This document shows, in pieces, positions 29,296 to 31,654 of a stretch of DNA of 64,000 bases. The stretch covers positions 372,001-436,000 of the forward strand of contig WGLP01000003.1 of the NCBI GenBank assembly GCA_016125505.1, written 5' to 3'. The stretch comes from Gammaproteobacteria bacterium. Its GTDB lineage: Bacteria > Pseudomonadota > Gammaproteobacteria > UBA6429 > Thiohalophilaceae. Positions within the stretch are counted from its first letter, which is position 1. Each line of letters starts with the position of its first letter. Position numbers and translations under genes: made by a program. The notes under the pieces were generated by a model, which was not told the origin of the DNA, did not search any database, and worked only from the letters and a program-made list of their open reading frames with translations.

Positions 29296-30687
29296 ATGTC
29301 TGATCAGATGACCCGGATTATTGTCGTCGATGGTTCCTCCGTCACCCGCGCGATCCTGGCCCGTATCCTCCAGGATGAAGTGTCCAATGCCGAGGTATAC
29401 CCTTGCGCCACAGGTGAGGAGGCGCTCGCTCTCCTGCGCCAAAGCAAATTTGATCTGATCTCCACCGCACTCATGCTGCCGGACATGGACGGTCTGGAAC
29501 TGAGCCGCCACGTACGTGCCTCCAAGGGCCACAGCTACATCCCTGTCATCGTCGTCTCTGGCGATGCCGATTCGCGCCTGCTGCGTGAAGGCTTTGAGGC
29601 CGGTGTCACCGATTATTTTGATAAATCCCAGGGTTATAAGGCCTTTGGCGGCTTTATCCGGTCCTTCATTCAACGCCACTCCGGCCTGGTGGGGCGTATC
29701 CTGTTCGTGGAAGACAGTGCGACAGCGGCCGCCGTTACCCAGAAAATCCTGGAGAAACATGGCCTCAAGGTTACCCGCCTGGCCAATGCCGAAGACGCGG
29801 TTGTGCTGATGCAGCCGCACGAGCGGGGTAGTGGCACCGCCCTGGACGAATATGACATGGTCATCACCGATTTTTACCTGGAAGGCGATATGACCGGTGG
29901 CGACCTGCTACATGCGATTCGCGCCAAACTACACCTGTCCCAGCAGGAAATGCCGGTCCTGGTGCTCACCAGCACCGAGGACCAGAGCACCCAGGTCGAG
30001 GTATTCCACGCCGGGGCCAACGACTTCGTCAGCAAGCCGATTGTAGAAGAGGTCCTGATTGCCCGGGTACGCGCGCTGCTCCTGATTAAGCACCAATACG
30101 ATGCCCTGAAAGAACAGACCGAGGCCATGCGTTGGATTGCGGTAACCGACAGCCTGACCGGGGTGCGCTCCAAGCGCTATCTGGTGGACAATGGTGAAGA
30201 ATACATCCGTAACAGCGCCAACCAGCCGGTGTGGGGCGTATTGATCGACATCGACCACTTCAAACAGATCAACGATACCCTGGGGCATATCACGGGTGAC
30301 CACGTACTGGCCGAAATGGGTGAACAGCTGAACAAGTCCTTCAAAGACAGTATGGTTGTCCGCTTTGGCGGCGAGGAATTTTGTATCCTGGTGCCGAACA
30401 TGCAAGCCGAGCAGATGCTGGAACGTGCCGAAAAACTGCGCCGTGAGGTCGCCCAGCTGCGTCCTGCCAATGTCAACATCACCGTCAGTATCGGGCTGGC
30501 TTGTAGCTGCGACCACCCCGACGAGCCACTGACCCGGTTTCTTGCCCTCGCGGACAAGGCGCTCTACCGGGCCAAGGAATCCGGCCGCAATCGTGTCTAT
30601 CTGTATGCCAAAGAGGGCCCGATACCCTCCCCCTGGAACGAATCGGAAACCGAAGTCCCCAACCCCCTGTCAAACTATAACCACTGA
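29296..30687 (+). CDS. Two-receiver diguanylate cyclase (REC-REC-GGDEF)
   Basis: 463 residues. REC1 (~6-125) keeps the acidic pocket (Asp12) and Lys110, but the phospho-acceptor is Ala58 (STALMLPDMDG), so it cannot be phosphorylated. REC2 (~133-262) is complete: VEDS, Asp192 in VITDFYLEG, and Lys247 in VSKP. The GGDEF domain has TDSLTGVRSKRYL and an active GGEEF at 358-362; the upstream RxxD inhibitory site is missing (FKDS). The protein should make cyclic-di-GMP in response to phosphorylation of REC2 by an unlinked kinase. It resembles the WspR/PleD-like response regulators in output only. Monocistronic between ftsX and rpoH. Confidence 0.93.
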   Translation: MSDQMTRIIVVDGSSVTRAILARILQDEVSNAEVYPCATGEEALALLRQSKFDLISTALMLPDMDGLELSRHVRASKGHSYIPVIVVSGDADSRLLREGFEAGVTDYFDKSQGYKAFGGFIRSFIQRHSGLVGRILFVEDSATAAAVTQKILEKHGLKVTRLANAEDAVVLMQPHERGSGTALDEYDMVITDFYLEGDMTGGDLLHAIRAKLHLSQQEMPVLVLTSTEDQSTQVEVFHAGANDFVSKPIVEEVLIARVRALLLIKHQYDALKEQTEAMRWIAVTDSLTGVRSKRYLVDNGEEYIRNSANQPVWGVLIDIDHFKQINDTLGHITGDHVLAEMGEQLNKSFKDSMVVRFGGEEFCILVPNMQAEQMLERAEKLRREVAQLRPANVNITVSIGLACSCDHPDEPLTRFLALADKALYRAKESGRNRVYLYAKEGPIPSPWNESETEVPNPLSNYNH

Positions 30688-30727
30688 AAACTTAGGTAAA
30701 TCGCTGTTCGCACAGCGAAAATTCTTC

Positions 30728-30755
30728 GGAACTCACACCGGCATTGGCACTCTAA
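30728..30755 (+). promoter_or_regulatory. SigmaE-like promoter upstream of rpoH
   Basis: GGAACTC at 30728-30734 and TCTAA at 30751-30755, 16 bases apart, fit the sigmaE pattern (GGAACTT, ~16 bases, TCTGA/TCTAA). The E. coli rpoH gene is known to have a sigmaE-dependent promoter, so the placement is sensible. The -10 part overlaps the CIRCE left arm and spacer. Confidence 0.5.
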
Positions 30756-30770
30756 CGACTCGAGTGCTAA
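30744..30770. promoter_or_regulatory. CIRCE operator (HrcA site) in the rpoH leader
   Basis: TTGGCACTC at 30744-30752, nine bases (TAACGACTC), then GAGTGCTAA at 30762-30770. The CIRCE consensus is TTAGCACTC-N9-GAGTGCTAA, so 17 of 18 arm bases match with exact spacing. CIRCE is the operator of the heat-shock repressor HrcA. It lies 38 bases upstream of the rpoH ATG. No hrcA gene is in the window. Confidence 0.85.
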
Positions 30771-30773
30771 CAT
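30744..30773 (+). promoter_or_regulatory. Sigma70-like promoter embedded in the CIRCE element
   Basis: TTGGCA (30744-30749, one mismatch) and TAACAT (30768-30773, two mismatches) are spaced 18 bases. The -35 lies in the left CIRCE arm and the -10 begins in the right arm, so HrcA binding would block RNA polymerase directly. Confidence 0.5.
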
Positions 30774-30808
30774 AAACCCATTACCAACCTCAGGGGTCAC
30801 AACGAATC

Positions 30809-31654
30809 ATGAGTAAAACGCTGGATATGCATTTACCTGTACCTACTGGCAGCCTGGATGCGTACCTACAGGCTATCAATGCCATTCCGGTGCTAAGCGC
30901 CGACGAAGAGCGGGCGCTGGCCATTCGCCTGCATGAGGAAAATGATTTATCCGCAGCCCGCCAATTGATCATGTCGCACCTGCGCTTTGTCGCGCACATC
31001 GCACGTGGCTATTCTGGCTATGGCCTGCCGTTGTCCGATTTGATCCAGGAAGGCAACATCGGCCTGATGAAGGCCGTGAAACGTTTCGACCCGCAGGTCG
31101 GCGTGCGCCTGGTTTCTTTCGCGGTGTACTGGATCCGCGCAGAGATCCATGAATTTATCCTGCGCAACTGGCGCATCGTGAAGGTTGCCACGACCAAGGC
31201 CCAGCGCAAACTGTTCTTTAACCTGCGCAGCGCCAAAAAGCGTTTGGGTTGGTTGAACAAGCAAGAAGTGGAAAGCGTGGCTCAGGATCTCGGTGTCTCG
31301 GCCAGCGAGGTTCTCGAAATGGAATCGCGCATGAGCGGTCAGGATGTGGCCTTCGATCTGCGTGAAGACGATGACGAGGATACGACCGTTGCGCCGGCAG
31401 CATATCTGCAAACCGCGACCGCAGGCCCGGACGAAGAGCTGGAAGAAAGCCAGTGGGAAGCGCATAACCATGATCGCCTGCAGGCAGCGTTGAGTACGCT
31501 GGACGAACGCAGCCAGGATATCGTGCAGCGTCGCTGGCTGGATGACAGTAAGTCAACGTTACAGGATCTGGCTGACAAGTACGCGGTCTCCGCCGAACGT
31601 ATCCGCCAGCTGGAAAACAACGCAATCAAGAAATTGCGCAACGCCTTGATTTAA
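30809..31654 (+). CDS. rpoH: RNA polymerase heat-shock sigma factor RpoH (sigma32)
   Basis: 281 residues, full length. It directs transcription of chaperone and protease genes. Core-binding region 2 ([47 protein letters not shown]), the RpoH box QRKLFFNLR at 132-140 that distinguishes sigma32 from other group factors, and region 4 with [28 protein letters not shown] are all present. Upstream lie a CIRCE operator and sigma70- and sigmaE-like promoters, so regulation may be transcriptional as well as by chaperone-linked turnover. A strong terminator follows. Confidence 0.97.

Follow-up and report, generated by a model that had tools for sequence, protein, structure and literature searches.

The 64-kb window, by which we mean the whole stretch of DNA analysed, contains on its forward strand a gene for the heat-shock sigma factor sigma-32 (rpoH), whose 281-aa product scores 420 bits against TIGR02392 (cut-off 323), possesses the Pfam sigma-70 regions 1.2, 2 and 4 and, among the matches to named genomes, is 73% identical to RpoH of a metagenome-assembled genome labelled Thiohalomonas denitrificans, which probably places the source organism close to Thiohalomonas. 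On the same strand, 5' of rpoH, there are ftsY-, ftsE- and ftsX-like frames, named by reading their translations, and between ftsX and rpoH lies a response regulator (29296-30687) that combines a GGDEF domain with two receiver stretches. All 30 loci checked in the family of the source genome have a GGDEF-like motif upstream of rpoH; in E. coli, ftsX directly precedes rpoH. The interval between the GGDEF gene and rpoH also includes a perfect 7-bp hairpin (TCGCTGT-TCGC-ACAGCGA, 30701-30718) that was left unscored by the terminator scan. The features of the leader and the gene are the following:

30729-30734, + strand: sigma-E-type -35 element GAACTC, with GAAC at the exact offset in 35 of 35 own-family leaders
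30744-30770, + strand: predicted HrcA-binding CIRCE operator, TTGGCACTC-N9-GAGTGCTAA, 17 of 18 arm positions
30744-30749, + strand: putative sigma-70 -35 element TTGGCA in the left CIRCE arm (consensus scan)
30751-30755, + strand: sigma-E-type -10 element TCTAA inside CIRCE, 16 nt past the -35, including the conserved spacer positions A10 and A11
30768-30773, + strand: putative sigma-70 -10 element TAACAT, extended by TG at 30765-30766 (consensus scan)
30792-30796, + strand: probable ribosome-binding site AGGGG (read from the sequence)
30809-31654, + strand: rpoH

The full operator, TTGGCACTC-TAACGACTC-GAGTGCTAA, has a spacer of exactly 9 nt and departs from the CIRCE consensus TTAGCACTC-N9-GAGTGCTAA at a single arm position, position 3, where A is replaced by G; its 3' end lies 38 bp from the rpoH ATG. 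When up to three mismatches were allowed, it was the only CIRCE site in the window, for which dinucleotide shuffles give an expected mean of 0.01 sites, and the match of 17 of 18 positions with exact spacing that an earlier note on this DNA had claimed is borne out. The source genome encodes a full-length HrcA of 351 aa in which PF01628 and PF03444 (DNA-binding and C-terminal domains) both exceed their cut-offs. The hrcA gene is followed, in an operon-like arrangement, by grpE, dnaK and dnaJ frames, these latter names being taken from their translations. Perfect GCACTC-N9-GAGTGC cores occur three times in the 4.16 Mb genome, before groES, hrcA and rpoH only, the first two being located as follows:

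C2:41120: perfect CIRCE core about 70 bp upstream of groES; CIRCE 18/18
C2:1049381: perfect CIRCE core before hrcA-grpE-dnaK-dnaJ

The earlier note had suggested checking its proposal of HrcA control by looking for hrcA, for further CIRCE sites in the genome and for conservation of the repeat among relatives, and regarded the lack of hrcA or of that conservation as refuting. All three were found: hrcA is full length with both domains, groESL and hrcA-grpE-dnaKJ are each preceded by CIRCE, and the operator is retained in every own-family rpoH leader that could be read. The order sample comprised 40 genomes, all of one family, and yielded 36 rpoH genes above the family cut-off, 35 of them with readable leaders and one with a leader ending at a contig edge; CIRCE was present in 35/35 of the readable leaders, representing 16 genera, with comparable spacing to the start codon. 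The operator before rpoH, a predicted HrcA-binding site, is confirmed. In the same family, CTTGACA and a CCGNTAT-like stretch, which could serve sigma-70 or sigma-32, stand upstream of most groES CIRCE sites (L292 and other groES loci among L267-L296).

Predicted promoter elements overlapping the operator

The promoter calls described here, both sigma-70 and sigma-E, are based on consensus and conservation. TTGGCA-N18-TAACAT with its TG extension is the only sigma-70-like site that the consensus scan detected between 30500 and 31000 (0.3 expected), in agreement with the earlier note, which had laid this promoter over the operator. The G at CIRCE position 3, which turns the left arm into TTGGCA, is present at rpoH in 34 of 35 own-family leaders, compared with 3/29 sites at groES and 7/25 at hrcA (p = 1.5e-13 and 8e-9, respectively, with kinship ignored), and this preference fits selection for a TTGACA-like -35 inside the operator. 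In addition, TG-N-TANNNT follows the -35 in 35/35 own-family rpoH leaders, and among the sites sampled across the class the three bases past the operator usually read AAT or TAT, finishing an extended -10 and differing from what is seen at own-family groES CIRCE sites. The predicted sigma-70 promoter is conserved; because its elements and the operator overlap heavily, this conservation is inseparable from that of CIRCE except at position 3 and at the three bases past the operator.

The predicted sigma-70 promoter of the earlier note stands, but that description overlooked a second predicted promoter, of sigma-E type, at 30729-30755. GAAC lies exactly 15 nt 5' of CIRCE in all 35 own-family members, with weakly conserved flanks, and within the spacer A stands at operator position 10 in 89% and at position 11 in 86% of the family, the other spacer positions being more variable. 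The combined own-family pattern, GAAC(T/C)(T/C)-N16-TCNAA, corresponds to the layout of a sigma-E promoter, with a GGAACTT-type -35, a TCNNA-type -10 and a spacing of approximately 16 nt. The genome encodes RpoE (318.8 bits to TIGR02939, cut-off 236.15), and GAACTC-N16-TCAGA precedes its own rpoE gene. The possibility that GAAC 15 nt upstream is a general trait of CIRCE was rejected, since the motif is absent at the groES and hrcA CIRCE sites; it is therefore a feature of rpoH, not of CIRCE.

Distribution of CIRCE upstream of rpoH

To the own-family genomes we added a class sample of rpoH leaders from 142 genomes of other families, most of which contributed a single genome, in which a CIRCE site was scored when at least 15 of 18 positions matched within 450 bp upstream of rpoH. 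Of the 112 genomes with hrcA, 102 had CIRCE before rpoH, versus 5 of 30 without it (Fisher p = 4e-15, with kinship ignored), in a sample that is biased towards leaders of higher-scoring RpoH, includes some incomplete genomes and relies on searches to call hrcA absent. The exceptions are thus ten hrcA-positive genomes lacking CIRCE before rpoH and five hrcA-negative genomes carrying it, some of which may reflect genome incompleteness. Named carriers of the CIRCE-rpoH arrangement include Pseudoalteromonas, Alishewanella agri, Rheinheimera and Catenovulum, and the sigma-E-type motif alone precedes rpoH in several enterobacterial records, e.g. Xenorhabdus, Pantoea and Rouxiella. In other classes of the phylum, CIRCE was found before rpoH in none of 20 genomes. 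Two loci of a single family with no hrcA match (L071 and L062, genomes G104 and G219) have a diverged palindrome, TGTGCACTC-N9-GAGTGTTAA, before rpoH, and this palindrome adjoins a GAACTT motif.

At the class level, GAAC precedes the CIRCE site of rpoH by 15 nt in 63 of 107 cases and by 16 nt in another 10 (73/107 together), with an average of 0.64 sites per other offset; the sigma-E part of the arrangement is not universal, as GAAC is absent at 15-16 nt in the other 34. Altogether, CIRCE over rpoH is the usual state in the sampled hrcA-positive Gammaproteobacteria and looks like a shared design. The link between HrcA and rpoH that the earlier note had proposed is supported by this comparison; rather than being peculiar to this genome, the arrangement is the rule among the sampled members with hrcA.

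The predicted composite operator-promoter and its alternatives

It is quite likely that the rpoH leader is a composite operator-promoter in which HrcA, bound at CIRCE, represses nested sigma-70 and sigma-E promoters. CIRCE spans the sigma-70 -35 together with half of its -10, and also the sigma-E-type -10. Repression of rpoH by HrcA is strongly supported by the comparative evidence; HrcA binding, the use of the promoters by each sigma factor and the steric nature of the repression we infer from the sequence. GroEL is assumed to be the sensor of HrcA here by analogy with Bacillus subtilis, where the dependence of HrcA activity on GroEL is well established. Under this model, transcription of rpoH could start either from the sigma-70 promoter TTGGCA-N18-TAACAT with its extended -10 or, with sigma-E (RpoE), from GAACTC-N16-TCTAA, with predicted start points near 30780 for sigma-70 and near 30760-30763 for sigma-E, and plentiful GroEL would maintain an active HrcA dimer on CIRCE that blocks both starts. 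Once misfolded protein occupies GroEL, HrcA activity would be lost, and rpoH, groESL and hrcA-grpE-dnaK-dnaJ would be released together; newly made sigma-32 would then induce the wider heat-shock regulon and raise the chaperones further, until restored chaperonin allowed HrcA to shut the system off again. Envelope stress, acting via sigma-E, would lift rpoH only within the limit set by HrcA. With one chaperonin-dependent repressor on rpoH, groESL and the dnaK operon, the predicted interactions form a coherent cascade.

A more restricted role of HrcA, in which it represses the sigma-70 promoter only, GAAC being a relic or the sigma-E promoter remaining usable despite bound HrcA, appears unlikely. 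The sigma-E -35 lies entirely outside CIRCE, and the class sites without GAAC at the fixed distance are in line with such a role; however, the sigma-E-type -10 is located within CIRCE, where an HrcA dimer on the DNA should keep polymerase away, and a GAAC that is invariant at exact spacing across 35 own-family members is unlike a relic. That the palindrome arose by chance or is the operator of another regulator is hardly conceivable, given that 0.01 sites are expected per window, that it occupies the same place in every relative with a readable leader and that it follows hrcA across the class.

We also consider it improbable that the main control of rpoH is of the E. coli kind, exerted through an mRNA thermometer and turnover of sigma-32, and that CIRCE has a small effect on the mRNA level. 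In favour of such control, the protein retains the conserved segment QRKLFFNLR, which we take to be the RpoH box, so that sigma-32 is probably still subject to chaperones and proteases as an extra layer of control. Nevertheless, the leader and early coding sequence fold no better than shuffles (z of +1.46, +0.85, -0.63 and -0.08, a weak test) and a search against Rfam matched no family, so that a thermometer in the rpoH leader is supported by neither, folding energy alone being unable to exclude one. Furthermore, an operator of minor effect would not be expected to persist in the great majority of hrcA-positive genomes.

Comparison with known heat-shock systems

The textbook control of E. coli rpoH operates largely through mRNA structure and sigma-32 turnover. 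Our comparisons suggest that in most hrcA-positive relatives rpoH is also directly repressed by the chaperonin-sensing HrcA over a shared sigma-E-type promoter; if true, one short stretch of DNA is the meeting point of the cytoplasmic chaperone sensor and of two sigma factors, those of envelope stress and of heat shock. We would give even chances to the broader proposition that, throughout the hrcA-positive Gammaproteobacteria, one operator gates both sigma-E and sigma-70 transcription of rpoH, that the E. coli P3 promoter is a remnant of this element in a lineage that lost hrcA and CIRCE, and that control at the mRNA level is a stand-in for the lost repressor. Should this be correct, the way in which the E. 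coli arrangement arose would be a testable case of rewiring following repressor loss.

In E. coli, GAACTT-N16-TCTGA lies between ftsX and rpoH and represents rpoH P3, the sigma-E-dependent promoter. The arrangement described here shares with P3 the type of -35 element and the 16-nt spacing, and differs in the distance from the sigma-E-type -35 to the start codon, which is 120 bp in E. coli and 80 bp here. The E. coli rpoH leader contains no CIRCE (best match 10/18), and a control search of E. coli gave no hrcA match. With HrcA/CIRCE control of the Bacillus subtilis type, the present system has in common the operator consensus, the repressor family and the groES and hrcA-grpE-dnaK-dnaJ targets. 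The rpoH target, the G at position 3 and the overlap with a sigma-E-type -10 go beyond that type of control, B. subtilis being without sigma-32.

Another parallel is Geobacter sulfurreducens, for which Table 8 of Rodionov et al. 2004 (PMC545781) gives a predicted CIRCE before rpoH, TTAGCACTC-[N9]-GAGTGCTAA at position -51. As in our case, the same operator is listed there for rpoH, groESL and hrcA-grpE-dnaK-dnaJ as one predicted HrcA regulon; unlike our case, the table entry concerns a single genome of a delta-proteobacterium, and a sigma-E promoter over the operator is not described in it. In Vibrio alginolyticus, RpoE has been shown to bind the rpoH promoter (PMC4890791). Beyond the Geobacter case, our literature search returned no report of CIRCE before rpoH, and none of a gammaproteobacterial CIRCE-rpoH arrangement or of its overlap with a sigma-E promoter; part of the distribution may already be recorded in Permina and Gelfand 2003 or in RegPrecise. 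The operator and each of the two promoter types are thus of known kinds, and what appears to be new is their composite layout and its breadth.
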